NCBI GenBank assembly: GCA_903847525.1
Contig: CAINEA010000867.1
Span: 1-41,071, forward strand
Source: an uncultured Acetobacteraceae bacterium
Lineage (GTDB): Bacteria; Pseudomonadota; Alphaproteobacteria; Acetobacterales; Acetobacteraceae
Length of the DNA stretch: 41,071 nt
Direction: 5' to 3'
Shown here: piece after piece, positions 14,177-32,315 of the stretch
Layout: every line of letters starts with the position of its first letter
Numbering within the stretch: the stretch's first letter is position 1
Notes under the pieces: model-generated
The model's input: the letters and a program-made list of their open reading frames with translations, nothing else
Database searches by the model: none
Told to the model about the DNA's origin: nothing
Made by a program: the position numbers and the translations under genes

Positions 14177-14788
14177 ATGCCGCCACCGTCTCTCGTGCTG
14201 TTCGATATGGACGATGTGCTGTGCTCCTACAGCATAGAACGCCGCGCGGCCTATCTGGCTCGGCTGGCCGGCAGCACGACGGAAGCGGTCCTGGCGGCGA
14301 TCTGGGGTTCGGGCTTCGAAACGCTCGCTGATAACGGCACGATCGATGCAGAGGCCTATCTACGCGGCTGCGGCGAACGCATCGGACACAGGCTCACACT
14401 CCAAGAATGGATCGATGCACGCCGCGCCGCCACGGCACCACAGACCGAGGTTCTGGAACTCGTGCAGCGGGTCCGCCAGAAAGCCAAGGTGGCAGTACTG
14501 ACCAACAACCCGACATTGGTCGAAGACCATATCCAGCTTCTGTTTCCGGAGCTGCCCCCACTGTTCGGCAGCTCCATCTACGCCTCCGCCGGCTTCAAGA
14601 CCGCCAAGCCGGCCGCCGAATGCTACCAGCGTTGCCTGTCGGTGCTGGGCATAGCACCCGCCGACGCATTGTTCATCGACGACCTCCCGGAGAATGTAGC
14701 AGGCGCGCAAGCTGCGGGCCTGGCCGCGTACAATTTCACGTCGGCGCACGCACTCGCCGAATTTCTGCGCGGACGCAGCCTGCTGTGA
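14177..14788 (+). CDS. HAD-superfamily hydrolase
   Basis: ATG at 14177; LFDMDDV motif I, VLTNN motif II, 'FIDDLPENVAGAQAAGL' motif IV; 203 aa. Confidence 0.85.
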   Translation: MPPPSLVLFDMDDVLCSYSIERRAAYLARLAGSTTEAVLAAIWGSGFETLADNGTIDAEAYLRGCGERIGHRLTLQEWIDARRAATAPQTEVLELVQRVRQKAKVAVLTNNPTLVEDHIQLLFPELPPLFGSSIYASAGFKTAKPAAECYQRCLSVLGIAPADALFIDDLPENVAGAQAAGLAAYNFTSAHALAEFLRGRSLL

Positions 14789-14803
14789 AGCGGACAGCTC
14801 CTC

Positions 14804-15439
14804 TCAAGCTTTGAGGCCACCCTGGGTCTCGATAAAGCGGGCGATCTCCTCCACCCCTACCCCGGCACGGATATTGGCAAAGATGAAAGGCCGCTCCCCG
14901 CGCATCTTGTTCGAATCCCGGTCCATCACTTCCAGGCTGGCCCCCACGAACGGGGCCAGGTCGATCTTGTTAATCACCAGCAGGTCGCTGCGGGTGATGC
15001 CCGGGCCGCCCTTGCGCGGGATCTTGTCGCCTGCGGACACGTCGATCACGTAGATCGTCAGGTCGGCCAGTTCCGGGCTGAAGGTCGCGGAAAGATTGTC
15101 GCCACCGCTTTCGATCAGGATCACGTCCAGGGCCGGAAACCGACGGTTCATCTCCGCCACGCCCGCCAGATTGATGGAGGCGTCCTCGCGGATGGCGGTA
15201 TGCGGGCAGCCGCCGGTTTCGATGCCGAGGATGCGTTCCGGCGCCAGCGAGCCGGCACGGGTGAGGAACTGCGCGTCTTCCTTGGTGTAGATATCGTTGG
15301 TGATGGCGGCGATGTCGTAGAGGGGGGCCAAGCGCTTGCACAGAGCATCCATCAGCGCTGTCTTGCCGGTACCGACCGGACCGCCGATGCCTACCCTCAG
15401 GGGACCATTGCCGGATTTACGCATGCCAGACTCGCTCAT
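14804..15439 (-). CDS. ureG: Urease accessory GTPase UreG
   Basis: [12 protein letters not shown]-loop, '[13 protein letters not shown]', '[17 protein letters not shown]', '[39 protein letters not shown]'. Confidence 0.98.
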
Positions 15440-16113
15440 GAACGAAACAACCTCGTGTACTGGGTTTCATGCCGCATGGCGGCGATGTCGGAACGAAAGG
15501 AGCAGCCGCCAAGGTCTTCCAACGTGGCGGCGCGGGTTTCGATGGCGACCTGAAGGATCACCGGCTCCAGGGTCGCCAGCACGCGCAGGCCGGCGGTCTG
15601 GCCGAGCGGGACCAGGCGCACGGCCGCAGAGATCAGGTTGGCCATGAAGGTTTCCAGATAGCCGGCGGCCACGGCGTCTTCGGGAATGTCGTGCGCGCCG
15701 GCCAGAGCACCGACGGCAACGGGATAGGCAATTTGCTCGCGGTCAATCCGCGCGGCCAGTGCAACCAGCGCCGGGCTGTGCCAGGGGGTGGCAGCCGCGA
15801 CGAAGGCGCTACCCTGGCCGAGCGTTTCGCCCTGGCGTTCGCGGGTCGGCGAAGTTGCTGCGGCGAGTTCGGCAATGACGCAAAGCGCGTCGGCGTCGCG
15901 CCCGGCGCGGTGGGCATGCCGTAGCAGGATCGTGTCGGACCGGCCCGCGCCGTTGGTCAGCACATCCTCCAGCCAGACCCGCAGCGTTTCGCCGTCTTTG
16001 ATGTCACCGGTTTCCACCGCCCATTCCAGCCCGTGCGAATAGGCGTAGGCGCCGGTGGGGAAGGACGGCGAAAGCCAGGCCAACAACCGCAGGGTCGCGG
16101 CCGCGTTAATCAT
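15436..16113 (-). CDS. ureF: Urease accessory protein UreF
   Basis: '[28 protein letters not shown]'; start chosen at MINAAATL (16113); 4-nt overlap with ureG. Confidence 0.95.
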
Positions 16114-16614
16114 GGGAATGATGGGCGTGCACATGGCCGTCGTCATCGTCATCACCATGGTGGTGATGCCCTCCGGCATAGGCCCCCGCCTCCGGATCGA
16201 ACGGCGCCTCGATCTCCTCCACATGTCCGCCCAGCAACTCCACCATCTCCCCGATCACATGGTCCACGCGGATGCGGATGCGATCGCGGATCAACTGAAC
16301 CGGCAGATGGCGGTTACCGAGATGCCAGGCAATACGGACCAGTTCGGCATCGCTGTGGGCGTGGATTTCCAACAGCTTTTCCGGGCGCGCGAGCACGCGC
16401 ACCACACCACCGTCTTCCAGTTTCAACCCGTCACCGTGCCGTAGCCGCACCGCTTGGGGTAGGTCCAACAACACATTCCGGCCGCCATCCGTGACGAACA
16501 GGATACGGCGACGGAAGCGGCGGTCGAAATCGATCGATACCTGATCGACCGCCACCGCCTCGTCCCAGCTTCCGGCCGGAAGAATTTCCCCCGACCTCAT
16601 GGATGCACCTGACA

Positions 16615-16615
<1 letters not shown>
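16106..16615 (-). CDS. ureE: Urease accessory protein UreE with histidine/aspartate-rich C-terminal tail
   Basis: UreE-like body ([33 protein letters not shown]) and tail [22 protein letters not shown]; start taken at MSGASMRSG. Confidence 0.94.
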
Positions 16616-18323
<1,708 letters not shown>

Positions 18324-18324
<1 letters not shown>

Positions 18325-18659
18325 CAGCCGAGGCCTCCCCCAAGTTCACCCATTATGTCGCCTCGAAAACCGAAGATCTTGCGAGCGCCGCGATAGGGGA
18401 TCAGCACCACGTTGCGGGTCTGGCCCGGCTCGAAGCGCACGGCGGTGCCGGCGGCGATATCGAGGCGCTTGCCGCGGGCCAGGGCGCGATCGAATGACAA
18501 GGCCGGATTGGTTTCAAAGAAATGGTAATGGCTGCCGACCTGGATCGGCCGGTCGCCGGTATTCGCGACCGTCAGTTCGGTGCGGTCCAGACCGGCATTC
18601 AATTCGATGTCGGCATCGGAGGTCATGATTTCGCCGGGTATCATGGTTCCGTCCTTCAT
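18324..18659 (-). CDS. ureB: Urease subunit beta
   Basis: '[18 protein letters not shown]', '[17 protein letters not shown]', '[21 protein letters not shown]'; start at [11 protein letters not shown] overlaps the ureA stop by 4 nt. Confidence 0.97.
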
Positions 18660-18958
18660 CGAATGGGTTCGTGAACGGTCACCAGCTTGGTGCCGTCGGG
18701 AAAGGTCGCTTCCACCTGCACGTCGTGGATCATCTCGGCGATACCGTCCATCACCTGGGCGCGGGTGATCACATTGGCGCCGGTTTCCATCAGGTCCGCG
18801 ACGCTGCGTCCATCGCGCGCGCCCTCGATGACGAAATCGCAAATCAGCGCCACCGCCTCCGGATGGTTCAGCTTCACGCCGCGTTCAAGGCGGCGGCGAG
18901 CCACCATCGCGGCCATGCTGATCAGCAGCTTGTCTTTCTCTCTCGGCGTCAAATTCAT
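18656..18958 (-). CDS. ureA: Urease subunit gamma
   Basis: [39 protein letters not shown], '[18 protein letters not shown]'. Confidence 0.98.
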
Positions 18959-18970
18959 TCGCGTTCCCCT

Positions 18971-19816
18971 TCAGCATAACCAGACGCGCGGCAGCGGGCG
19001 TTCCCCGCGCAGCGCCTGTAGACCCGTCACCACCGCCCGGCGCAAGGAAGCGCCGTCAGCGGCCAGAAACCGTGCGACAAGCATGCCGTCCCAGGCGCTC
19101 GCCCCCCATTCGCCCGGCGCATCCGCCAGGGCCTCCCGCAAGCCGTCCAGCGCCGCTTCTGCGTCGGGCGCGACATGCAGCAAAGTCGCCATGGCACAGG
19201 CGCCGCCACCGATCGCCGGGCGGGCAAGTCTGGCCGCCACCTCGCCCTCCATCCGCACGGCGTCGTGCAGCAGCAGGCGACCGTCACGACGGATGCGGAT
19301 AGTGTCGCGGAAATTGGCGTGGCCGACCTGTTCGCCCATCGCAGCTCGGCCAAACACGATTGCCTCCACACCGAGAAACCAGGCATCCGACGCGAGCTCA
19401 ATCTCCAGCCGGCGATCGAGTGCGCAGCGATCGAACAGGATGGTTTCCTGCGGCAGCCATTCCATCGACGCGCCCGGCGCCACCCGAATTTCCGTGCGCA
19501 CCGTGGCGGGCGCCGCACCTTGCAATGCGCGGTAGCAGCGTTCCGCCGCCTGTCCCGCGATGGTCGCCCGCGCCCCCTCCCCGATGGCAATGGCGCTGGT
19601 CAGCCGGTCTCCAGCCGCGATGCCGCCGGCGGTGTTCAGACTGACGGCGTTGGTCCAGGCGCCGCGTTCCGGGCGCGGAAACCGCGCCTTCAGGCAACCC
19701 ATCTGCCGCAGTCCATCGAGCACCGTCTCTGTCCCGCGCAGCCGCATGGACAGGCGCAGTTCACCGACGGCACGTTGATGGGTATCGGCTTCAGACAGAG
19801 AGGCGGCGTCGTACAT
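18971..19816 (-). CDS. ureD: Urease accessory protein UreD
   Basis: 'QRAVGELRLSMR', 'NTAGGIAAGDRLTSAIAIGEGARATIAGQAAERCYR', 'WLPQETILFDRCALDRRLEIEL'; start inferred at MYDAASLSEADTHQRA inside ORF 18971..19864. Confidence 0.95.
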   Translation of the reverse strand: MYDAASLSEADTHQRAVGELRLSMRLRGTETVLDGLRQMGCLKARFPRPERGAWTNAVSLNTAGGIAAGDRLTSAIAIGEGARATIAGQAAERCYRALQGAAPATVRTEIRVAPGASMEWLPQETILFDRCALDRRLEIELASDAWFLGVEAIVFGRAAMGEQVGHANFRDTIRIRRDGRLLLHDAVRMEGEVAARLARPAIGGGACAMATLLHVAPDAEAALDGLREALADAPGEWGASAWDGMLVARFLAADGASLRRAVVTGLQALRGERPLPRVWLC

Positions 19817-20486
19817 CCTGCTCGTCGAGCTCCTCGCGTTTGCCGGACAGCACGACATCGCCACGATCCATCACAACGATGGTTTGTGCCAGTTCACGGG
19901 CGAAATCGAAATACTGCTCGACCAGCAGGATGGCCATGTCTCCGCGTTGACGCAACAAGGCGATCACGCGGCCGATATCCTTGATGATGCTGGGCTGGAT
20001 GCCCTCGGTCGGCTCGTCCAGCACGAGCAAGCGCGGTTTCATGATCAGCGCGCGCGCGATCGCCAATTGCTGTTGCTGTCCGCCGGACAGATCGCCGCCG
20101 CGCCGGCCCAGCATGGTCTTCAAGACCGGGAAAAGCTCATACGTTTCGTCGGGAATTCGCCTTTCGCGTCGGGGAAGCACAGCAAAGCCGGTCTCCAAAT
20201 TCTCCTGCACCGTCAGTAGCGGAAAAATATCGCGTCCCTGCGGCACCCAGGAAATCCCACGCTTGGCCCGCTCATAGATCGGCAGACGGGAAATATCCTC
20301 GCCCTCCCACCGGATCGTCCCGGCGGATATGGGATGCGCACCCGTGACCGCACGCAGCAGGCTGGTCTTACCTACGCCGTTGCGACCCATGATGCAGGTA
20401 ACGGCACCGACTTCCGCGGTCAGCGAAACCTTCCGCAGTGCGATGGCGGCGCCATAATACAGATCGACGTTTTCTACGCTCAGCAT
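19791..20486 (-). CDS. urtE: Urea ABC transporter ATP-binding protein UrtE
   Basis: 'GRNGVGKTSLLRAVTG', LSGGQQQQLAIARAL, 'LLVLDEPTEGIQPSIIKDIGRVI' (UrtE hallmark); start at MLSVENVDLYYG. Confidence 0.96.
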   Translation of the reverse strand: MLSVENVDLYYGAAIALRKVSLTAEVGAVTCIMGRNGVGKTSLLRAVTGAHPISAGTIRWEGEDISRLPIYERAKRGISWVPQGRDIFPLLTVQENLETGFAVLPRRERRIPDETYELFPVLKTMLGRRGGDLSGGQQQQLAIARALIMKPRLLVLDEPTEGIQPSIIKDIGRVIALLRQRGDMAILLVEQYFDFARELAQTIVVMDRGDVVLSGKREELDEQDVRRRLSV

Positions 20487-20501
20487 TTTAACGGCCCCCA
20501 C

Positions 20502-21263
20502 TCATCGGCCGAGATACACTTCGACGACCCTGGGGTCCTCGCTGACAAAATCGATCGAGCCTTCCGACAGCACCGATCCCTCGTGCAGCACGGTCACCTT
20601 CACGCCCAGCGCACGGACGAAATCCATATCGTGCTCCACCACCACAACGCTGCGTGTCTTGTTGATCTCACGCAGCAGATCGGCCGTCTGCGCCGTCTCG
20701 GAATCGGTCATGCCGGCAACGGGTTCATCGACCAGTAGCAATTGTGGCTCCTGCGCCAGCAGCATGCCGATCTCCAGCCATTGCTTCTGGCCATGCGACA
20801 GGCCGGCGGATTGGCGCGCGCGAACATCGGTCAGGCGGATGGTTTCCAGAATGCTCTCGACCTTCTCGCGCTCGTCCGTGGTCTCGCGCGCCCACAGCGT
20901 GAAGCGCGGGCGCCGATCGCCGGCGAGCGACAACAGCAGATTGTCCCAGACCGTCAGCGGTTCGAACACGGTCGGCTTTTGGAACTTCCGGCCGATGCCC
21001 AGGTCGGCGATCGCGGGCTCGTCCAGCCGGGTCAGGTCGGTGTCCTTGCCGAACATCACCGTGCCGGTGTCCGGTCGGGTCTTGCCGGTGATGACGTCCA
21101 TCATCGTGGTTTTGCCGGCGCCGTTCGGGCCGATCACGGCGCGCATTTCGCCGGCTTCCAGATACAACGACAGGGCGTTCAGCGCACGAAAGCCATCGAA
21201 CGTCACGGTTACGCCATCCAGATACAGCAGGGTATCGCCGGGAGGCGTTTGCAAATCGCTCAT
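20502..21263 (-). CDS. urtD: Urea ABC transporter ATP-binding protein UrtD
   Basis: 'LYLDGVTVTFDGFRALNALSL', 'GPNGAGKTTMMDVITGKTRPDTG', 'LSHGQKQWLEIGMLLAQEPQLLLVDEPVAGMTDSE'. Confidence 0.96.
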   Translation of the reverse strand: MSDLQTPPGDTLLYLDGVTVTFDGFRALNALSLYLEAGEMRAVIGPNGAGKTTMMDVITGKTRPDTGTVMFGKDTDLTRLDEPAIADLGIGRKFQKPTVFEPLTVWDNLLLSLAGDRRPRFTLWARETTDEREKVESILETIRLTDVRARQSAGLSHGQKQWLEIGMLLAQEPQLLLVDEPVAGMTDSETAQTADLLREINKTRSVVVVEHDMDFVRALGVKVTVLHEGSVLSEGSIDFVSEDPRVVEVYLGR

Positions 21264-22375
21264 CCCGTCACCTCGCTGATTTTCTCTGGCGGCACCTCAT
21301 CCACCGGCCGGATGTGGCGGAAGCGGTCCAGTGCCCCGATCACGCCCTTGGGCAGGAACAGGGTCACGAAGATGAACAGCGCACCCAGCGCATACAACCA
21401 CAGTTCCGGCAGGGCGCCGGTGAAATAGGTCTTGCCGAGATTGACCAGGATGGCCCCCAGGATCGCGCCTGTCAGCGTGCCGCGGCCGCCGACCGCGACC
21501 CAGATCACCGCCTCGATCGAGTTGGCCGGCGAGAACTCGCCGGGGTTGATGATGCCGACCTGCGGCACGTACAGAGCCCCGCCGATGCCGGCCATCACGG
21601 CGGAGGCGACGAACACCACCAGCTTGTAGGATTCCGGGCGGTATCCCAGGAACCGCGTACGGCTTTCCGTATCGCGCACAGCCACCAGCACCTTGCCGAA
21701 GCGCGAGCCCACGACGAACCGGGCGGCCAAAAACATCAGGCACAGCATAACCGCCGTCGCCAGCAACAGGCCGACGCGCGTCGTGTCCGCCTGCAGCGGC
21801 ATGCCCAGAAGATCCTTGAAGTCGGTCATGCCATTATTGCCGCCAAACCCCATATCGTTGCGGAAAAAGGCCAGCAGCAACGCGTAGGTCAGTGCCTGGG
21901 TGATGATGGACAGATACACGCCGGTGACGCGCGAGCGGAACGCCAGCCAGCCGAACACCAGGGCGATCAGCGCGGGCACCAGAACCGCCATCAGCATGGC
22001 GAACGGGAACTGGTCGAAGCCATGCCAATACCAGGGCAGTTCCTTGTAGTTCAGGAACACCATGAAATCCGGCAGCACCGCGTTGCCATACACCCCGCGC
22101 GGGCCGATCTGGCGCATCAGATACATGCCCATGGCGTAGCCGCCCAAGGCGAAGAAGGCGGCATGGCCCAGGCTCAGGATGCCGGCGAACCCCCATACCA
22201 GGTCCAGCGCCAGTGCCAGCATGGCGAAGCTCAGATACTTGCCGGCCAGCGACACCGCGTAGGTTGGCACGTGCAGCGCGGAGCTTTCCGCCGTGCCCAG
22301 ATTGAGCACGGCCATTAGTATCGCGCCGCCCAGCACCAGAACGAGCGTCAGGATCGTGGAGCGAAGCGGGATCAT
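21260..22375 (-). CDS. urtC: Urea ABC transporter permease UrtC
   Basis: Multi-TM; 'GFAGILSLGHAAFFALGGYAMGMYLMRQIG', 'FNNEMGFGGNNG'-like region (FRNDMGFGGNNGMTDFKD), typical UrtC. Confidence 0.96.
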   Translation of the reverse strand: MIPLRSTILTLVLVLGGAILMAVLNLGTAESSALHVPTYAVSLAGKYLSFAMLALALDLVWGFAGILSLGHAAFFALGGYAMGMYLMRQIGPRGVYGNAVLPDFMVFLNYKELPWYWHGFDQFPFAMLMAVLVPALIALVFGWLAFRSRVTGVYLSIITQALTYALLLAFFRNDMGFGGNNGMTDFKDLLGMPLQADTTRVGLLLATAVMLCLMFLAARFVVGSRFGKVLVAVRDTESRTRFLGYRPESYKLVVFVASAVMAGIGGALYVPQVGIINPGEFSPANSIEAVIWVAVGGRGTLTGAILGAILVNLGKTYFTGALPELWLYALGALFIFVTLFLPKGVIGALDRFRHIRPVDEVPPEKISEVTG

Positions 22376-23964
22376 GCCTCCACCGCCCGTCCCTTAAGCG
22401 GGAACATACCGCGCGGCTTGCGCTGGATAAACAGGATCAGCGCGACCAGAACCACAATCTTCGCCAACACGGCACCGGCAACCGGCTCGAGGAACTTGTT
22501 GAGAATGCCCAGTGTCAGCGCGCCCACCGCCGTGCCCCAAAGATTGCCGACCCCGCCAAACACCACGACCATGAAACTGTCGATGATGTAGCCCTGGCCA
22601 AGATTGGGGGAGACGTTGTCGATCTGGCTCAGCGCCACGCCCGCCATGCCCGCCACGCCCGAACCGAGGCCGAAGGTCAGCGCGTCGATCCAGGGCGTGC
22701 GAATGCCCATCGCCGCGGCCATGCGCCGGTTCTGCGTCACCGCACGCATCCGCAGGCCGAGCGAGGTATAGCGCAGCACCGCCATCAGCGTCGCCAGAAC
22801 CAGCACTGCAAACACGATGATGGTCAGGCGATTATAGGTCAGCGACAGGCCACCGAGTTGCATCGCCCCACTCATCCAGGCGGGCGTGCCGACCTCCTGG
22901 TTGGTCGGTCCGAAGATCGAGCGTATCGCCTGCTGCAGCAGAAGCGACAGACCCCAAGTGGCCAACAGCGTTTCCAGCGGCCTTCCATACAGCCAGCGGA
23001 TCAGGCTGCGTTCGATCGCGACACCGATCGCGCCGGCGACCAGGAAGGCCAGCGGCACGGCGAAGAACAGGCTGGCGCCGAACAGTCCGGGCGCATGGTT
23101 GCGGATGATCGTCTGGACAACGAAGGTGACATAGGCGCCGATCATCACCATCTCGCCGTGCGCCATGTTGATCACGCCCATCACGCCGAAGGTGATGGCA
23201 AGCCCGGTCGCGGCCAGCAGCAAAACCGAACCCAGGCTGAGGCCGTAATACACACTCTGCAGCAGGCTCCAGAGTTGCAGAGAAAAATCGATCGACTTCA
23301 CGGCCGCGGCCGCCGCTTCGACCACGGAAGGGGGCTGGTTGGTCAGGGTTGAGAGCAAGGCGCGCGCGTCGATATCGCCACGGTCGCGAAGCGTCGCAAC
23401 CGCCGCCAGACGATCGGCCTCGGAAGCGTCTCCAGCGGCGAACAAGGCGGCGGCACGCGCCTGCTCCATCGTCCGCTTCACGCCGGAATCTTTCTCCGCG
23501 GCGATCGCGCGTGTCAGTGCCGGAATGCCGGCGGGATCGCGGGACTTGAAGACCGCCTCTGCGGCGGAGGCACGTGTAGCCGCGCTGGCGTCGAACAGGC
23601 GCAGCGCGCCAAGCGCCGCGTCGACCGAACGTCGGATGGAATTGTTGACACGAACCGGGCGCACACTTCCGGGATCAGCGGCGGGCTCGCCGGTCAGCGC
23701 GGCTTGATAGCCGCCTTCAGGCAATTTGATGAACAACTGCTTGTCGGCACCCAGCACCAGACGACCATCCTGCAAGGCGCCCAGGATGGCAGCGGCCCGT
23801 GGACTGCCAGAGACGCCAAGCGCCTCTACCCCCCGCCGGATATCGTCGAAATTCTGTCCGGCCAGTGCCACGACGGCCTCGTTGGCCGCATCGTCGGCCC
23901 GGGCGCTGCTTGGGGCGCAAATTGGCGCGAGCATCAGCAGACAGAGCAAGAGGATACGCAACAT
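22372..23964 (-). CDS. urtB: Urea ABC transporter permease UrtB (long form with N-terminal extension)
   Basis: Signal-peptide-like MLRILLLCLLMLAPICAP, periplasmic-type N-terminal region, then LivH-type permease 'GVMGVINMAHGEMVMIGAYVTFVVQ', as in long UrtB proteins. Confidence 0.95.
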   Translation of the reverse strand: MLRILLLCLLMLAPICAPSSARADDAANEAVVALAGQNFDDIRRGVEALGVSGSPRAAAILGALQDGRLVLGADKQLFIKLPEGGYQAALTGEPAADPGSVRPVRVNNSIRRSVDAALGALRLFDASAATRASAAEAVFKSRDPAGIPALTRAIAAEKDSGVKRTMEQARAAALFAAGDASEADRLAAVATLRDRGDIDARALLSTLTNQPPSVVEAAAAAVKSIDFSLQLWSLLQSVYYGLSLGSVLLLAATGLAITFGVMGVINMAHGEMVMIGAYVTFVVQTIIRNHAPGLFGASLFFAVPLAFLVAGAIGVAIERSLIRWLYGRPLETLLATWGLSLLLQQAIRSIFGPTNQEVGTPAWMSGAMQLGGLSLTYNRLTIIVFAVLVLATLMAVLRYTSLGLRMRAVTQNRRMAAAMGIRTPWIDALTFGLGSGVAGMAGVALSQIDNVSPNLGQGYIIDSFMVVVFGGVGNLWGTAVGALTLGILNKFLEPVAGAVLAKIVVLVALILFIQRKPRGMFPLKGRAVEA

Positions 23965-23989
23965 AACGCTTACCTTCCGCGGCTTGGAT

Positions 23990-24021
23990 GCCGGGCAAGG
24001 GGGGATGCCCCCAGGCCCGGC
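23990..24021 (-). promoter_or_regulatory. Strong intercistronic stem-loop between urtA and urtB
   Basis: GCCGGGC-AA-GGGGGG-ATG-CCCCC-AG-GCCCGGC: 7 bp outer stem plus 5 bp inner stem, in the 74-nt urtA-urtB gap; no U-tract follows on the minus strand. Confidence 0.7.
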
Positions 24022-24038
24022 TCCTCGCATTCAGCTTG

Positions 24039-25355
24039 TTATTTCGCGGAACCGCCGCACTTGCCGGTCTTGACGTTGAAGTTGCCGCAAGACATCGGCG
24101 AGCGCCAGTCGGCGATCAGGTCACGCGAACCCTCGAGGTACGGCGACCATTCGTTTGCGACGATCAGGCCCGGGGTCTGGGACACGATGTTGAACTGCCC
24201 GTTGCCCTGGATTTCCCCGATCAGCACCGGCTTGGTGATGTGATGGTTCGGCATCATCGCCGAGAAGCCACCCGACAGGTTCGGAACAGCCACGCCGATC
24301 ATGGCGTCGATCACCTTGGTTGGGTCGGTCGTTCCGGCCTTCTCTACAGCCTTCACCCACATGGCAAAGCCGATCACATGCGCTTCCATCGGGTCGTTGG
24401 TGACGCGCTTGGGGTTCTTGGTGAACGCCTGCCACTTGGCGATGAACGCCTTGTTGTCGGCGTTGTCCACGCTCATGAAGTAGTTCCATGCAGCGAGATG
24501 GCCGAGCAGCGGCTTTGTGTCGATGCCGGCCAGTTCTTCCTCGCCGACCGAGAACGCCACGACCGGAATATCGGTCGCCTTGATGCCCTGGTTGCCGAGT
24601 TCCTTGTAGAACGGCACGTTGGCGTCGCCGTTGATCGTGGAAACGACGGCGGTCTTCTTGCCGGCGGAGCCGAACTTCTTGATCGAGGCCACGATGTTCT
24701 GCCAATCCGAATGGCCGAACGGCGTGTAGTTGATCATGATGTCCTCGTCTTTGACGCCCTTCGACTTCAGGTAGGCTTCAAGGATCTTGTTGGTCGTGCG
24801 CGGATACACATAGTCGGTGCCGGCGAGCACCCAGCGCTGCACCTTCTCGTTTTCGGCCAGGTAATCAACTGCCGGGATCGCCTGCTGGTTCGGCGCCGCA
24901 CCGGTGTAGAAGACGTTCTTGCTGCTCTCCTCGCCCTCATACTGGACGGGGTAGAACAGGATGTTGTTCAGTTCCTCGAACACCGGTAGCACGGATTTGC
25001 GCGAAACCGATGTCCAGCAACCGAATACCGCGGCGACCTTCTGCACGCTGATCAGTTCGCGTGCCTTTTCGGCGAACAGCGGCCAGTTGGAAGCGGGATC
25101 GACCACCACGGCTTCCAGCTTCTTGCCGAGCAGGCCGCCTTTCTTGTTCTGCTCCTCGATCAGCATCAGCATGACGTCCTTCAGCGTGGTCTCGCTGATG
25201 GCCATGGTGCCTGAGAGTGAATGCAGGATGCCGACCTTGATCGTTCCCGTTCCCTGGGCCTGCGCCGGTGTGGAGCCGATGGCAGCGGCGGCCATGGCGG
25301 CCAAACCGAGTGCCCCCATCGCCCGCCGCGTGAGCCAATTCTTAGCGATTGTCAT
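24039..25355 (-). CDS. urtA: Urea ABC transporter substrate-binding protein UrtA
   Basis: 'IKVGILHSLSGTMAISETTLKDVMLMLIEEQNKKGGLLGKKLEAVVVDPASNWPLFAEKA', 'FYPVQYEGEESSKNVFYTGAAPNQQ'; ATG at 25355 with GGGGAA SD at 25361-25366. Confidence 0.97.
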   Translation of the reverse strand: MTIAKNWLTRRAMGALGLAAMAAAAIGSTPAQAQGTGTIKVGILHSLSGTMAISETTLKDVMLMLIEEQNKKGGLLGKKLEAVVVDPASNWPLFAEKARELISVQKVAAVFGCWTSVSRKSVLPVFEELNNILFYPVQYEGEESSKNVFYTGAAPNQQAIPAVDYLAENEKVQRWVLAGTDYVYPRTTNKILEAYLKSKGVKDEDIMINYTPFGHSDWQNIVASIKKFGSAGKKTAVVSTINGDANVPFYKELGNQGIKATDIPVVAFSVGEEELAGIDTKPLLGHLAAWNYFMSVDNADNKAFIAKWQAFTKNPKRVTNDPMEAHVIGFAMWVKAVEKAGTTDPTKVIDAMIGVAVPNLSGGFSAMMPNHHITKPVLIGEIQGNGQFNIVSQTPGLIVANEWSPYLEGSRDLIADWRSPMSCGNFNVKTGKCGGSAK

Positions 25356-25445
25356 TAGACTTCCCCGTGTTGTTCGTAGTGACATGAAGCCAAGGTGCCT
25401 GACGCCCACACACTGCGCGCGAACGACCCCACCTGAGCGCAACAA

Positions 25446-25462
25446 CGCAAGGTCCGTGCCAT
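25446..25462 (-). promoter_or_regulatory. Sigma-54 (RpoN) -24/-12 promoter of the urt-ure array
   Basis: Minus strand reads TGGCAC-GGACC-TTGCG (plus: CGCAAGGTCCGTGCCA), matching TGGCAC-N5-TTGC exactly, about 100 nt upstream of the urtA start. Confidence 0.75.
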
Positions 25463-25717
25463 CAAAGGTAATGGTCGTTATTTCAAAGTGTTATGCGGAA
25501 AGTGCCGGCCCGTTTCAGAGGCCGCGCCGGCCGATGCCAGCCGTCGCATAAACTTTGTGCAATTTTTGCGCCCTCCTGAGGCAGGCGGCATCACATGTCA
25601 CCCGTCCGCGAGAACAATCCAAATTTCGCGAGCCGTCGTCGCGCAGAAACGTGCCTGGATGGCGGTGCGGGACGGTTTGTCTATAGTCCTTCCTCCTGAT
25701 CCCAGCCGGAGCGCCCC

Positions 25718-26683
25718 ATGACGCACACGCGTTTCAATCCCGAATTGTTTGCCGACGATGTCATCGACGCCGAAACTAGGGCATTGAACGCCGCGATCGT
25801 GGCAGCCATGGATGGCATGCCGGAATGGTGGGACGTGGGCGCCGAAACGGTGCGTGAAGCACGTCGGCAGGGCCGCGGACCGTTCCCGCCCACTCCGCAA
25901 TCACCGCGCGCGGTGATGCGGATGATCGAAGGTCCGGACGGCAACCGGATCCCGGTGCGCATCGTTGCCCCAGCGCACCCGCGCGGCATTTATATCCTTC
26001 TGCATGGTGGCGGTTGGGTGCTGGGCGCGTGCGACCAGCAGGACCCGATGCTGGAGCGCATTGCCGACAATGCCGGCCTTGTCTGTATCAGCGTCGAATA
26101 CCGGCTGGCGCCGGAACACCCCTACCCCGCCGGGGCGGACGATTGTGAGGCCGTGGCACTGTGGCTGGCGAAATCGGCCAAGGCAGAATTTGGTACCGAC
26201 GTGCTGACCATCGGCGGCGAGAGCGCCGGGGGCCATCTGGCAGCGGTGACGCTGCTGCGCATGCGCGACAAGCATGACTTTCGCAACTTTCGCGGCGCCA
26301 ACCTGGTGTTCGGGGCCTTCGACCTGACCATGACACCGAGCCAGCGCCAGTTCGGCAACATCCGCCTGGTCCTGCGCACGATCGATATCGAGAAATTCTG
26401 CGACGCCTTCCTGCCAGCCCAATATGACCGCCGCGCCCCCGATATCTCCCCGCTCTATGCCGATCTCAGCGGCCTATGCCCTGCCCTGTTCTCGGTCGGC
26501 ACGTCGGACGCGCTACTCGACGATACTCTATTCATGCATGGCCGGTGGATCGCCGCCGGCAACCCGGCGGAACTGGAGATCTATCCGGGCGGAGCGCATG
26601 GCTTCACGATGTTCCCTGGTGCGCTGGCGGATCGGGCACGGGCGCGGATGGACGAGTTCCTGCGCGCATCGGTGGCGGACTGA
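25718..26683 (+). CDS. Alpha/beta hydrolase (hormone-sensitive-lipase-like family)
   Basis: '[12 protein letters not shown]' oxyanion motif, '[11 protein letters not shown]' nucleophile elbow, '[12 protein letters not shown]' catalytic His region. Confidence 0.92.
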
Positions 26684-26782
26684 TCCGCGCTGGCGAAAGC
26701 CCGCATCGAAAACGGATCGTTAATCCTCCAAGCGCAAGCTCTGCCGGAGTGCAAAAAACTTGCGCGAAATGGATGCTCCGGC

Positions 26783-27511
26783 GTGCAGAAAAATGTCTTC
26801 CACTTTCTCGGCCGAAGGATCGAACTCTGGACCCATCCGGAGCCTGACCCCCTGGCAACGCTGATCCGCAGCACCGGGCGGTTCTACGAGCCGGACGTGC
26901 TGGCGAAGGCTCAGGAAATCTATTTGCCTGGCACGACCATCGTGGATGTCGGTGCGAATATCGGCAATCACACAGTCTTCTTTGCCACGATCCTGGGTGC
27001 GCAGGTCATCGCGATGGAACCCTACCGCCCCAATCACGACCTGCTGGAAGTGAACGTCGCCGCGAATGGGATCGGGGACCGGGTTCGCACCCATTGCCTG
27101 GCCCTCGGGGAACGAGACGGCAGCGGATCCGTGCGGATCGGCGATCCCGGCAATCTTGGGACGGTCGGGATTCAAGCAAATGGCGGCATTCAGCCAGGTG
27201 GCGGCGATATCCCCATTCGCAGCCTGGACGGCATGGCACTCGATGCACCGATCGGGTTGATCAAGATCGATGTGGAAGGCAACGAAGCCGCCGTACTGGC
27301 CGGAGCAGAGCAGACGATCCGCCGGTGGCGCCCCGACATCATCGTAGAGGCAGACGGTACGGACCGCTTTCTGGCAACCGCGCGGCAATTGCACGAATTC
27401 GGCTACGCCCGGCAAGGCCGCTATGCCTGGACGCCCACTTATCTGTTTTCCGCCATAGACCAGGGAGCCCGCATGCACAGTCTCCTCGACCTGCTCGGCA
27501 AAGCTGCCTGA
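26783..27511 (+). CDS. FkbM-family methyltransferase
   Basis: 'TIVDVGANIGNHTVFFATILGAQVIAMEPYRPNHDLLEVNVAANG' and 'IGLIKIDVEGNEAAVLAGAEQTI'; GTG start at 26783 is uncertain. Confidence 0.87.
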   Translation: MQKNVFHFLGRRIELWTHPEPDPLATLIRSTGRFYEPDVLAKAQEIYLPGTTIVDVGANIGNHTVFFATILGAQVIAMEPYRPNHDLLEVNVAANGIGDRVRTHCLALGERDGSGSVRIGDPGNLGTVGIQANGGIQPGGGDIPIRSLDGMALDAPIGLIKIDVEGNEAAVLAGAEQTIRRWRPDIIVEADGTDRFLATARQLHEFGYARQGRYAWTPTYLFSAIDQGARMHSLLDLLGKAA

Positions 27512-27522
27512 CGGCAGGCGGC

Positions 27523-28938
27523 CTATCCACGCTTCTCGAACTGATACGGGCTGGCGCCGGTAATCAGCGGGTCCAGCGACAGCCGGTGCTCCAGCGGCGG
27601 GAAGGCTCGGGACCGGCAATCCTGCCGGTCGCACAGGCGGCAGGACAAGCCGATGCCCACCCGCGAACGGACGAGGTCCAGCCCATCGGCATAGACCACC
27701 TCGGCGGCGTGCTCGATCGCGCAGCCCATGGCCACCACATGCACCGGCGCCGGGTCGCCCCAATGCGCGCCGGGGTGGGACACGGTGCGGGCAAAACAGA
27801 GAAAGGCCGCGCCGTCCGGCAGTTCGGCCACCTGGACCTGCACGCTGCCCGGCGTGGCGAAAGCGGAATGGACCACCCAGCGCGGGCAGGAGCCGCCGTA
27901 GCGGGCAAACGGAAAGCCGGCGGCGGAGAAGCGCTTGGAGACGTTCCCGGCAGGGTCCACAACCAAAAAAAAGAACGGCACGCCGCGGTTGCCGGTCTTT
28001 CCCGACGCATTGGGCCGCTGCAGCGTGGAGAGCCGATGGCACGCTTGCTCGAACGACACACCAAAACGCGCGGCCAGCGCTTCCATGTCATGGCGCAAGG
28101 ATGCGGCCGCGCGCTGGAACGGCTGGTACGGCATCAGCAACGCGCCGGCGACGTAATTGAGCAGCCCGATCCGGATCAGCGATTCCGCCTCGGGCGAGGA
28201 CGGCGCGGCGCGTTTCAGTTCCGCCTCCACGGCGTCGCGCGCCTCCAGCAGTCCCAATTGAAAGGCCATGTGGAAGCCGCGGCTTTCGCGCGGCAGCGCT
28301 TCCGACAGCATCAGGCTGCGCGCGGCAGGATCATAGCGGCGCAAGGCCCCATCGAGCGAGCCGACGGTCACGCTCAGCCCATGCTCCCGGCGAAGACGCT
28401 CGGCGATGGCGTGGTTGGTCTCGGCCGGCAGCACCGGGCCGAGCGACGCAGCGATGGCCTCGGCGGCGCTTTCCAGTTCGGCGAAATAGTTGAACCGGTC
28501 GGTGAACAAGTCCCGCGCCTCCTCGGTCGGCAGCAGAATGCGCCTTCCTGACGGCAGGGCGATGCCGCCGCTGTCCTCGCGCGCCACGCGCCAGGCACGA
28601 TACAGCGACAGCACGGCCCGGGCGGCGTTCGGCGCACTTCCGGCCAGCGCCGCGATTTCGTCTTCCGGCACGTCTTCTGCGCCGAGCAGGGCGTCGGCGA
28701 ATACCTCCCGCAAGCCCAACTCGATCTGGCGCTCCTCGCTGCCGGACAAGGTGGCGAGATCGACCTGCAAGGTTTCGCCCAACTTGATCAGCAGCGAGGC
28801 GGTGACGGCGCGCTGGTCGTGCTCGATCAGGTTCAGATAGCTCGCGGAAATGCCGAGCCGGGCCGCCAGGGCCTGCTGCGACAGTTCCCGCTCGGTGCGC
28901 AGGCGGCGGACCGTCCGGCCGATCAAGGCACGGGCCAT
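27523..28938 (-). CDS. XRE-family HTH regulator of the ScfR (short-chain fatty acyl-CoA regulator) type
   Basis: N-terminal HTH 'GRTVRRLRTERELSQQALAARLGISASYLNLIEHDQRAVTASLLIKLGETLQVDL', central IrrE/ImmA-like region and Cys-rich C-terminus 'GIGLSCRLCDRQDCRSRAFPP', as in ScfR proteins. Confidence 0.88.
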   Translation of the reverse strand: MARALIGRTVRRLRTERELSQQALAARLGISASYLNLIEHDQRAVTASLLIKLGETLQVDLATLSGSEERQIELGLREVFADALLGAEDVPEDEIAALAGSAPNAARAVLSLYRAWRVAREDSGGIALPSGRRILLPTEEARDLFTDRFNYFAELESAAEAIAASLGPVLPAETNHAIAERLRREHGLSVTVGSLDGALRRYDPAARSLMLSEALPRESRGFHMAFQLGLLEARDAVEAELKRAAPSSPEAESLIRIGLLNYVAGALLMPYQPFQRAAASLRHDMEALAARFGVSFEQACHRLSTLQRPNASGKTGNRGVPFFFLVVDPAGNVSKRFSAAGFPFARYGGSCPRWVVHSAFATPGSVQVQVAELPDGAAFLCFARTVSHPGAHWGDPAPVHVVAMGCAIEHAAEVVYADGLDLVRSRVGIGLSCRLCDRQDCRSRAFPPLEHRLSLDPLITGASPYQFEKRG

Positions 28939-28956
28939 GCCTTGTCTCCTCTGGAA

Positions 28957-28990
28957 TTTACACGGTTTACAGATTTACGAACTTATTCGT
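28957..28990. promoter_or_regulatory. Candidate operator in the ScfR-type gene promoter
   Basis: Three repeats TTTACA-CGG-TTTACA-GA-TTTACG (28957-28979) running into the inverted repeat ACGAA-CTTA-TTCGT (28977-28990), just upstream of the 28938 start. Confidence 0.4.
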
Positions 28991-29096
28991 CAAAACACCA
29001 ACGGTATTGCGACATTAAACGCAAAAAACCACGTGCATCTCGCGGCCGCAAGGTAAATTATTCACCCACGCCCAACGCAGCAACGGAGATCTCCTC

Positions 29097-29312
29097 ATGC
29101 GCCCATCCACCGCCCCGACCCGCTCTCCCGAAGGCATGTCCGCTCCCGCAAGCCAGGATACAAGGCGTTTCGCCGGCAATCACCCGATGACCGGAACCAC
29201 GGAGACAGGCCATCGCCAGGAAAGTGCTCCGCACCCCGACAACTACGATGACGGCCTGGTGCACAACCATAATTGGGCAACCGCGACCGCCCGACACACC
29301 GCCAGACAGTAA
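29097..29312 (+). CDS. Candidate small protein of unknown function (71 aa)
   Basis: ATG with GGAG SD 8 nt upstream; stand-alone between a divergent gene and a strong intrinsic terminator; MRPSTAPTRSPEGMSAPASQDTRRFAGNHPMTGTTETGHRQESAPHPDNYDDGLVHNHNWATATARHTARQ. Confidence 0.5.
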   Translation: MRPSTAPTRSPEGMSAPASQDTRRFAGNHPMTGTTETGHRQESAPHPDNYDDGLVHNHNWATATARHTARQ

Positions 29313-29336
29313 GACGCCTCCGACCCCGCACCTTGC

Positions 29337-29376
29337 ACGCCCGCGACGGCCTGGCCTTCGCGGGCGTTTTCTCGTT
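29337..29376 (+). terminator. Rho-independent terminator
   Basis: ACGCCCGCGA-(CGGCCTGGCCT)-TCGCGGGCGT followed by TTTCTCGTTT; perfect 9-10 bp stem 25 nt after the 71-aa ORF stop. Confidence 0.8.
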
Positions 29377-29504
29377 TGGATACCAAACCTGGGTCTCGCC
29401 GGGCTGCCAGGCGTCGAATGCTAGAAGCGGAGATACGATTTCGCTCCCCTGGTCCCATCCCCACCGCACCGCTACCATCGGGAGGACCAACAGGGAGAGT
29501 CAGC

Positions 29505-29642
29505 GTGCGCGAAATCAAGGTCGACGACGTCACCATTATCGAGCACGATCGCCTCTGGACGAAGCCGATGGATGTCTTCACTCCTGCCATCAGGCTGATC
29601 GAAGCGAATAGCGAGCAGTTTCATTTTCGGTTCGTTCGGTAA
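29505..29642 (+). CDS. Candidate 45-aa small protein / leader ORF upstream of pepN
   Basis: GTG with GGGAG SD 7 nt upstream; VREIKVDDVTIIEHDRLWTKPMDVFTPAIRLIEANSEQFHFRFVR*; stops 9 nt before the pepN ATG. Confidence 0.4.
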   Translation: MREIKVDDVTIIEHDRLWTKPMDVFTPAIRLIEANSEQFHFRFVR

Positions 29643-29651
29643 GGCCGGGCC

Positions 29652-32315
29652 ATGATGGACAGCCATCACGACGCGGCCGCGGTGCAGCCCCGGACGACGC
29701 GGCTCGCCGAGTACCGCCCGCCCTCCTTCCTGGTAGAGCAGGTGGACCTGACTTTCGACCTGGATGAAGCCGCCACCCGGGTCACCTCCCGCCTGGCGTT
29801 GCGGCGCAATCCCGCGGCAGACCCCACCGCGCCGCTGCATTTGAACGGCGACGGCCTGACATTGGTCCGTGTGGTGTTGAACGGCGAGGCACTCGGTGCC
29901 AACCAGTATCAACTCCTGGACGGCAACCTGATCATCGCCGGCCTGCCGGATGCGTGCACGCTGGAGGTCGAAACCCGCATCGACCCGGCGGCGAATACCG
30001 AGCTCAGCGGTCTTTATGTGTCCAAGGGCAGCTTCTTCACCCAGTGCGAGGCAGAGGGGTTCCGCCGCATTACGTTCTTCCCCGACCGGCCGGACGTGAT
30101 GTCGCGCTACAGCACGACGATCCACGCCAACAAGGCGCGCGTCCCGGTGCTGCTGTCGAACGGCAATCTGGTGGCGGCCGGCGATCTGCCGGACGGGCGG
30201 CATTTCGTCCGCTGGGAGGACCCGCACCCGAAGCCGGCCTATCTGTTCGCGCTGGTCGCTGGCGATCTGGTGGCGCTGAAGGATCGTTTCACCACGCGCT
30301 CCGGCCGAGAGGTGGCGCTCGGGATCTGGGTGCGCCTGGGGGACGAGCATGCCTGCGGCCACGCGATGACGTCGTTGAAAAAGTCCATGACCTGGGACGA
30401 GGAGGTGTTCGGCCTGGAATACGATTTGGACATATTTAACATCGCCGCCGTGTCGGACTTCAACATGGGGGCGATGGAGAACAAGGGGCTGAATGTCTTC
30501 AACACCAAATACGTGCTGGCACAGCCGGCGACGGCCACCGACGGCGACTATCAGGCGATCGAGGCGATCATCGCGCACGAGTATTTTCACAACTGGACCG
30601 GCAACCGCGTCACCTGCCGCGACTGGTTTCAATTGTCGTTGAAAGAAGGCCTGACGGTTTTCCGCGATCAGGAGTTCTCCGCCGACCAGGGATCGCGGGC
30701 GGTGAAGCGGATCGGCGACGTGCGCGGGCTGCGCGCGGCGCAGTTCCGCGAGGATGCCGGACCGCTGGCCCATCCGGTGCAGCCCGACCAGTATATCGAG
30801 ATCAACAATTTCTATACCGCGACGATCTACCAGAAGGGCGCGGAGGTCATCCGCATGATGCATACGCTGATCGGCAAGGCAGCGTTCCGCCGCGGCATGG
30901 ATCTGTATTTCGCCCGCCACGACAACCAGGCGGTAACGATCGACGATTTCGCCCAGGCGATGCAGGACGCTTCCGGCGTTGATCTGTCCGGATTCAAGCG
31001 TTGGTATCACCAAGCCGGCACTCCGGAGGTAACGGTCGCCGATGCGTATGACCCCGCATCCCGCCGATATACGCTGACGGTGCGCCAGCACACGCCGCCT
31101 ACGCCCGGCCAGCCGGACAAGCAGCCACTGGTCATTCCGCTGGCGATGGGGCTGCTGGCGCCGGACGGAACAGCGATGCCGGCGCGACTGGATCAGGAGG
31201 CCGCGGCTTCGAGCGGTACCCGGGTGTTGCTGGTAACCGAGGCAGAGCAGAGCTTCCATTTCATCGATGTGCCGGCGCCGCCGGTGCCATCGTTGCTGCG
31301 TGGCTTCTCTGCACCCGTGAAACTATCGGGGGTGTCGCGTGAGCGTCTGCGCTTCCTCGCGGCGCATGACAGCGATCCGTTCGTGCGTTGGGAATCTGGC
31401 CAGCAATATGCCGCCGGATTGCTGTTGGAGATGGCCGGGGGATCCGAGCGGTCGGTCGAGCCCGGGCTGATCGAGGCGATGGCCGCATGTTTGGCGCGGG
31501 GGGACGCGGACCCTGCCTTCGCGGCAGAGGCACTCGGTCTGCCGGGCGAGGCGTTCCTCGCCGATCAGATGGCAGTCGCGGATTTCGATGCCATTCACGA
31601 TGCGCGCGACAGGACCCGCGCCGCGATCGGAAAGGCGTTGGCGGGGGAATTGCGCGCGACCTATGACCGGCTGACAGAAGCCGGGGAGTACCGGATCGAC
31701 GGCGCCGCCATCGGCCGGCGGGCCCTGCGCAACACCTGCCTGTCCTATCTGGTGGCCGGCGGTGTGCCGGACGCGGTGGCGCTGGCGAAGGCGCAGTTCG
31801 ATGCCGGACGAAACATGACCGACGTGCTGGCCGCGCTCTCCGTGCTGAACGGGGTAGATTGCCCGGAACGGGCCGAGGCGCTGGCCGACTTCCACGCGGC
31901 GTGGCGCAAGGACGAACTCGTGCTGGACAAATGGTTCGCCATCCAGGCGATGTCTCCGCTGCCCGGCACGATCGCCGCGGTGCGGGCGCTCACCGGGCAT
32001 GCGGATTTCGACTGGAAGACGCCGAACCGGGTGCGTTCGGTGATCGCCGGCTTCGCTTCCGGCAACCAGGTGCGGTTTCACGATGCCTCCGGCACCGGCT
32101 ACCGCTTCCTCGCCGAGGCGGTGAAACGGCTCGACCCAATCAACGGGCAGATCGCCGCACGGCTGGTGCAGCCCCTGGGCCAGTGGCGGCGCACCGACCC
32201 GGGACGGCAGGCCGCGATGCGCGCGGCGCTGGCCGACGTGTTGGCGCTGCCCGGCCTGAGCAAGGGCACCTATGAAATGGTTTCCAAAAGCCTGGAGAAT
32301 TCCGATGCAGGTTGA
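29652..32315 (+). CDS. pepN: Aminopeptidase N (M1 family)
   Basis: 'GAMENKGLNVFNTKYVLA', 'HEYFHNWTGNRVTCRDWFQLSLKEGLTVFRDQEFS', i.e. GAMEN and HEXXH-(X18)-E zinc motifs; 887 aa. Confidence 0.97.
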   Translation: MMDSHHDAAAVQPRTTRLAEYRPPSFLVEQVDLTFDLDEAATRVTSRLALRRNPAADPTAPLHLNGDGLTLVRVVLNGEALGANQYQLLDGNLIIAGLPDACTLEVETRIDPAANTELSGLYVSKGSFFTQCEAEGFRRITFFPDRPDVMSRYSTTIHANKARVPVLLSNGNLVAAGDLPDGRHFVRWEDPHPKPAYLFALVAGDLVALKDRFTTRSGREVALGIWVRLGDEHACGHAMTSLKKSMTWDEEVFGLEYDLDIFNIAAVSDFNMGAMENKGLNVFNTKYVLAQPATATDGDYQAIEAIIAHEYFHNWTGNRVTCRDWFQLSLKEGLTVFRDQEFSADQGSRAVKRIGDVRGLRAAQFREDAGPLAHPVQPDQYIEINNFYTATIYQKGAEVIRMMHTLIGKAAFRRGMDLYFARHDNQAVTIDDFAQAMQDASGVDLSGFKRWYHQAGTPEVTVADAYDPASRRYTLTVRQHTPPTPGQPDKQPLVIPLAMGLLAPDGTAMPARLDQEAAASSGTRVLLVTEAEQSFHFIDVPAPPVPSLLRGFSAPVKLSGVSRERLRFLAAHDSDPFVRWESGQQYAAGLLLEMAGGSERSVEPGLIEAMAACLARGDADPAFAAEALGLPGEAFLADQMAVADFDAIHDARDRTRAAIGKALAGELRATYDRLTEAGEYRIDGAAIGRRALRNTCLSYLVAGGVPDAVALAKAQFDAGRNMTDVLAALSVLNGVDCPERAEALADFHAAWRKDELVLDKWFAIQAMSPLPGTIAAVRALTGHADFDWKTPNRVRSVIAGFASGNQVRFHDASGTGYRFLAEAVKRLDPINGQIAARLVQPLGQWRRTDPGRQAAMRAALADVLALPGLSKGTYEMVSKSLENSDAG

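Follow-up and report, generated by a model that had tools for sequence, protein, structure and literature searches.

The window, that is, the whole 41,071-nt stretch of DNA analysed here from an Acetobacteraceae bacterium, carries genes for urea uptake and urea hydrolysis in one array, urtABCDE-ureDABCEFG. All of these genes lie on the minus strand, from 25355 down to 14804, and neighbouring frames either overlap or stand no more than about 12 nt apart. An intergenic stretch of 362 bp lies between urtA and a divergently oriented hydrolase gene, and contains a sigma-54-type promoter element and, farther upstream, a candidate NtrC box. The features are as follows.

25718 to 26683, plus strand: alpha/beta hydrolase (PF07859), divergent neighbour of urtA
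25545 to 25561, minus strand: candidate NtrC box TGCACAAAGTTTATGCG (TGC-N11-GCG), centred at about -118, score 15.5 with a glnK-trained matrix
25447 to 25461, minus strand: sigma-54 (-24/-12) promoter element TGGCACGGACCTTGC, 10/10 consensus positions, predicted +1 at about 25435
25356 to 25435, minus strand: predicted 80-nt 5′ leader of urtA, deduced from the sequence by way of the -12 position
24039 to 25355, minus strand: urtA (TIGR03407, 554.8 bits; cut-off 492.75)
22372 to 24030, minus strand: urtB, permease of 552 aa, residues 258-548 of which match the UrtB model (TIGR03409)
21260 to 22375, minus strand: urtC, permease (TIGR03408)
20502 to 21263, minus strand: urtD, ATP-binding protein (TIGR03411)
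19791 to 20501, minus strand: urtE, ATP-binding protein (TIGR03410)
18971 to 19864, minus strand: ureD (PF01774), open frame that overlaps urtE, the true start probably lying later
18656 to 18958, minus strand: ureA, urease gamma (PF00547)
18324 to 18842, minus strand: ureB, urease beta (PF00699, PRK13203), open frame; the true start is probably at about 18644, the domain starting near residue 67 of the open frame
16615 to 18324, minus strand: ureC, urease alpha (TIGR01792, 978.7 bits)
16106 to 16666, minus strand: ureE (PF05194, PF02814), open frame
15436 to 16224, minus strand: ureF (PF01730), open frame
14804 to 15439, minus strand: ureG (TIGR00101, 336.7 bits)

The ATG of urtA at 25355 is preceded by GGGGAA. 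A single transcript covering urtABCDE-ureDABCEFG is plausible, and the urease genes would be co-transcribed with the transporter genes because all of them share one strand, their frames are contiguous or overlapping and no sigma-70-like site was found in 14500-25900 by a scan that is weak for GC-rich genomes. Terminator-like matches within the array are fewer than in shuffled sequence. It is unlikely, though of all the alternatives considered here it fares best, that RpoN drives only urtABCDE and that a separate promoter serves the urease genes: the array is long and from its sequence could hold internal promoters, and urease is listed separately among the sigma-54-regulated functions of alpha- and betaproteobacteria (PMC12316311), but the tight packing on one strand, the lack of a sigma-70-like match and the scarcity of terminator-like matches all speak against such a division.

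The DNA around urtA is shared with another genome of the comparison, G022. Positions 24039-30631 of the window are 97.3% identical to its contig C39 (L229:3-6595), and this identity stops at the urtA stop codon; past it, from urtB onwards, G022 is about 73% identical to the window, and a second, partial urtA of the same genome (C63) is 84% identical. Either a recent transfer of the promoter together with urtA or a chimeric assembly could account for the break, and the near-identical G022 was left out as independent evidence.

The element TGGCACGGACCTTGC at 25447-25461 on the minus strand agrees with TGGCAC-N5-TTGC at all ten specified positions, with GG at -24, GC at -12 and the fixed spacing between them. 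An earlier note on this DNA had proposed exactly this site with every consensus position matched, and in this it was right, except that its limits, 25446-25462, were one base too wide on each side. When the C of GC is taken as -12, the +1 is predicted at about 25435 and thus 80 nt ahead of the ATG, the distance that the note had also given. In the long consensus the element is flanked by Y and W; here A precedes TGG and G follows TTGC, and neither fits. No other exact match occurs in the window, for which shuffles give a mean of 0.15; because one or more exact matches turn up in 13 of 100 window shuffles, the element taken alone within 41 kb is suggestive and not significant. The whole host assembly (6.28 Mb in 1081 contigs, 88.6% complete) holds 20 exact matches versus 6 for a reversed-pattern control, and several of the others are located before or close to genes that encode solute-binding proteins (NMT1-type, SBP_bac_5) and an amidase.

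Comparison with other genomes gives strong support. In a set of 80 named loci plus the family of the host, a site was counted when GG and GC were present and at least 9 of 10 positions matched on the sense strand. By this criterion a site is present in 49 of the 68 non-redundant regions upstream of urtA (24 of these sites being exact), while random or coding slices of the same loci gave 0.4 at the 9/10 level and 0 exact, and the antisense strand gave 1. Position 7, which lies outside the selection, follows the accepted consensus, with G in 76 and A in 27 of 107 sites. A class-wide sample of urtA genes, drawn regardless of the presence of a sigma-54 site, contains the site in 42 of 59 cases, 36 of which also have an NtrC box. 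The motif is retained in close relatives, its absence from which the earlier note had named as a ground against its own proposal: the same-genus genome G001 has the sigma-54 site TGGCATGGCGCTTGC and a box, TGCCCAAAATCTAGGCG, at -96. The urtA gene of Acidisphaera sp. L21 has TGGCACGATCATTGC upstream. rpoN is present in 24 of 25 genomes examined, and the only genome lacking it (G057) has a urtA without the site, a single consistent case; as a natural experiment, the absence of rpoN is almost uninformative with 24 of the 25 genomes possessing the gene.

Where the earlier note had seen no clear NtrC dyad upstream of the promoter, an imperfect but statistically supported one is found at 25545-25561. 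Inverted dyads enriched in the 200 bases upstream of sigma-54 sites were searched for with no assumption about NtrC, and the top-ranked ones include GCCT-N7-AGGC, TGCC-N9-GGCA and TGC-N11-GCA. This last dyad recurs in 23 of the 49 regions that have a sigma-54 site (2.4 expected) versus 2 of the 19 that lack one. TGC-N11-GCA is the rhizobial NtrC box, demonstrated at nfeR1 of S. meliloti by EMSA and DNase I footprinting (PMC10746234), and the NtrC boxes of P. stutzeri have the form GC-N11-GC (PMC8443478). For an independent test, a matrix was trained exclusively on glnK promoters from the host's family and then applied to urtA. Among these 18 glnK promoters, 17 have a sigma-54 element, mostly ending in TTGA or TTGG, and 12 have the TGC-N11-GCA box (2.5 expected). 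With the glnK matrix, 36 of 56 urtA regions score above the 1% coding-slice threshold (0.6 expected) and 26 of 56 above the stricter 1% shuffle threshold, with reversed regions giving 0; the median of the box centres, -146, is a usual enhancer distance.

In the window, TGCACAAAGTTTATGCG is of the TGC-N11-GCA type and lies at enhancer distance, with one mismatch in the six core positions (GCG for GCA); its p-value against coding slices is 0.0002, and 10 of 2000 shuffled versions of the region in which it lies score at least as high. A second dyad in tandem, TGCCTCAGGAGGGCGCA at 25567-25583 (about -140, 22 bp from the first), scores 2.1 with p = 0.30 and is not claimed. A strong box is missing from several Acetobacteraceae urtA regions that have a sigma-54 site (G009, G016, G019), and in the host's own glnK promoter TGGCACGGTTCTTGA is present and a clear box was not found. 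Most glnK promoters of the family (L141-L159) have TGGCACGGTTCTTGA or TTGG, a -12 element that lacks the last C seen at urtA.

The host genome encodes RpoN (TIGR02395, 409.5 bits, on contig C1006) and five clear sigma-54 activator ATPases. One of these is NtrC (TIGR01818, 709.3 bits), in whose sequence an intact GAFTGA loop can be read. NtrX lacks the GAFTGA loop and so drops out as a classical sigma-54 activator. The others are a FlbD-like protein (L103) and two similar orphan NtrC-like proteins (L104 and L105). The orphan pair, on host contigs C271 and C437, is very similar, one member being cut at a contig end, and could represent paralogues or a strain mixture in the assembly. The FlbD-like and the orphan kind both carry a GAFTGA or GAFSGA loop, so that an RpoN-dependent promoter served by one of them rather than by NtrC can be conceived; it is improbable, since the conserved dyad fits both the NtrC box of the same-family glnK promoters and the footprinted rhizobial NtrC box. 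Hardly any credit is due to the idea that the 15-mer fits the consensus by chance and that a sigma-70 promoter drives urtA: shuffles do occasionally produce an exact site, but site, strand and position are conserved in distant relatives where 0.4 would be expected by chance, and the same scan of 14500-25900, weak as it is for GC-rich genomes, offers no sigma-70-like candidate.

The reading preferred here, with a probability of about 0.87, is that 25447-25461 is the -24/-12 promoter of the urtABCDE-ureDABCEFG unit and is driven by NtrC and RpoN in this Acetobacteraceae bacterium. The direct RpoN control of urea uptake and hydrolysis genes that had been proposed from the window alone is strongly supported by comparison, namely by a site that keeps its type, position and strand across Alphaproteobacteria, by the host rpoN and by the phenotype of Bradyrhizobium rpoN mutants. 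The activator, which had been left open, is now most probably NtrC, to which both the dyad at 25545-25561 and the host NtrC with its GAFTGA loop point. The DNA ahead of the genes for urea uptake and urease very probably acts as a true switch for nitrogen starvation. RNA polymerase with RpoN would sit on 25447-25461 as a closed complex. Upon nitrogen limitation, phosphorylated NtrC would bind the box at 25545-25561, an action at about -118 that is proposed because of the established NtrC/RpoN mechanism; it would then loop to the polymerase and open the promoter by means of its GAFTGA loop and ATP hydrolysis. As predicted from the sequence, urea would be imported and hydrolysed when ammonium is short.

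One of the closest known cases is Bradyrhizobium sp. DOA9, in whose rpoN mutants urtA-D and ureA-D are strongly down and whose urtABC genes have a predicted sigma-54 site, TGGCATGGTTCTTGC, upstream (PMC13207237). It resembles the window in having a sigma-54 site before the urt genes and RpoN-linked urt and ure genes, but belongs to another bacterial order; NtrC was not examined there, and the fragments that the study names as tested by EMSA do not include the urt promoter (PMC13207237). Predicted NtrC regulons include urea ABC transporters and urease in Alteromonadales, Oceanospirillales, Rhizobiales and Rhodobacterales, the order of the host not being listed in the passage of that study concerned (PMC5343134). 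Within the family, the glnK-amtB promoters of the same genomes likewise combine a sigma-54 element with a TGC-N11-GCA box, although their elements mostly end in TTGA or TTGG and the window urtA element ends in TTGC. The NtrC sites of S. meliloti NfeR1 and glnII share the TGC-N11-GCA spacing with the window box, but the one at nfeR1 serves to repress a sigma-70 promoter (PMC10746234). The window promoter therefore appears, on well-supported grounds, to be a known mechanism newly seen in Acetobacteraceae. NtrC/RpoN control of urea scavenging would thereby be extended to this family, with the probable activator settled computationally.

Where urtA has no sigma-54 site upstream, a hybrid histidine kinase is usually encoded divergently from it, together with a response regulator of the LuxR type. 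The kinase is about 1125 aa long, its first 650 residues giving no Pfam match above cut-off, and behind it comes a response regulator whose DNA-binding domain is of the GerE/LuxR type. In Acetobacteraceae, a homologue of one such kinase stands beside urtA in 6 of 6 regions without the sigma-54 element and 0 of 14 with it, and the linkage is also found in Rhizobiaceae, Roseibium, Pleomorphomonas and a Vibrio. Many of the site-less regions contain, about 80-110 nt before the ATG, the palindrome TACGTCA-NN-TGACGTA (7-2-7). Two heptamers in inverted orientation with 2 bases between them are the layout known for NarL. The palindrome loci are as follows.

Upstream of urtA: palindrome TACGTCA-NN-TGACGTA in L012, L013, L017, L019, L027, L028, L033, L043, L045, L052
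Upstream of urtA (rest): the same palindrome in L057, L059, L060, L063, L064, L075, L079, L126, L129

The palindrome was first spotted by eye, and the regions with a sigma-54 site serve as its control. Among 127 non-redundant regions, none of the 91 that have the sigma-54 element shows palindrome or kinase, versus 21 of the 36 that lack it, an exclusion of the two designs with a Fisher p of 1e-14 that ignores relatedness. L180, which was dropped from this count as redundant, is a weak exception, with a 9/10 element, TGGGACTGCAATTGC, and the kinase. Kinase and palindrome also occur separately: Azospirillum has the palindrome with no adjacent kinase, and L178, L180, L192 and L227 are kinase-linked regions without palindrome, as are those of G004, G020 and G028, which share a different element. 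A stretch containing TGTCAATAC is common to three kinase-linked Acetobacteraceae loci without palindrome (L116, L119, L120).

At the window urtA, no kinase match was found in the flank, where the divergent neighbour is the hydrolase, and the palindrome is not present upstream, the best match reaching 8 of 14 positions. The host possesses a second urtA at C598:24297-25421 on the minus strand (539 bits, above the UrtA cut-off). Divergent to it at 25819-28026 on the plus strand of C598 (L228) lies the kinase gene, cut by the contig end, and TACGTCAAACTGCGTA is located between the two. As read from its sequence, the host carries both regulatory designs, one on each of two urtA loci. That the kinase-linked operons form one separate UrtA lineage is rejected, as the label needs about 11 changes on the tree; in the UrtA tree of 96 rows, at least 5 changes of the kinase/palindrome label are forced by well-supported branches. 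A kinase/LuxR pair beside a second urtABCDE is annotated in Ectopseudomonas guguanensis (PMC13296017), and among the papers searched no regulatory study of such a pair was found.

It is thus fairly probable, though less so than the promoter assignment itself, that proteobacterial urt operons follow two nearly exclusive designs, NtrC/RpoN or a divergent kinase with a LuxR-type regulator and often a NarL-like palindrome, which have been swapped repeatedly and are both kept in the host. The functional meaning of this exchange is hypothetical. For specialists this may be the more interesting part, as it would be a clean instance of rewiring at promoters: ahead of one and the same transporter, a global control by nitrogen and a local control by a two-component system would have replaced one another, even among genera within a single family.
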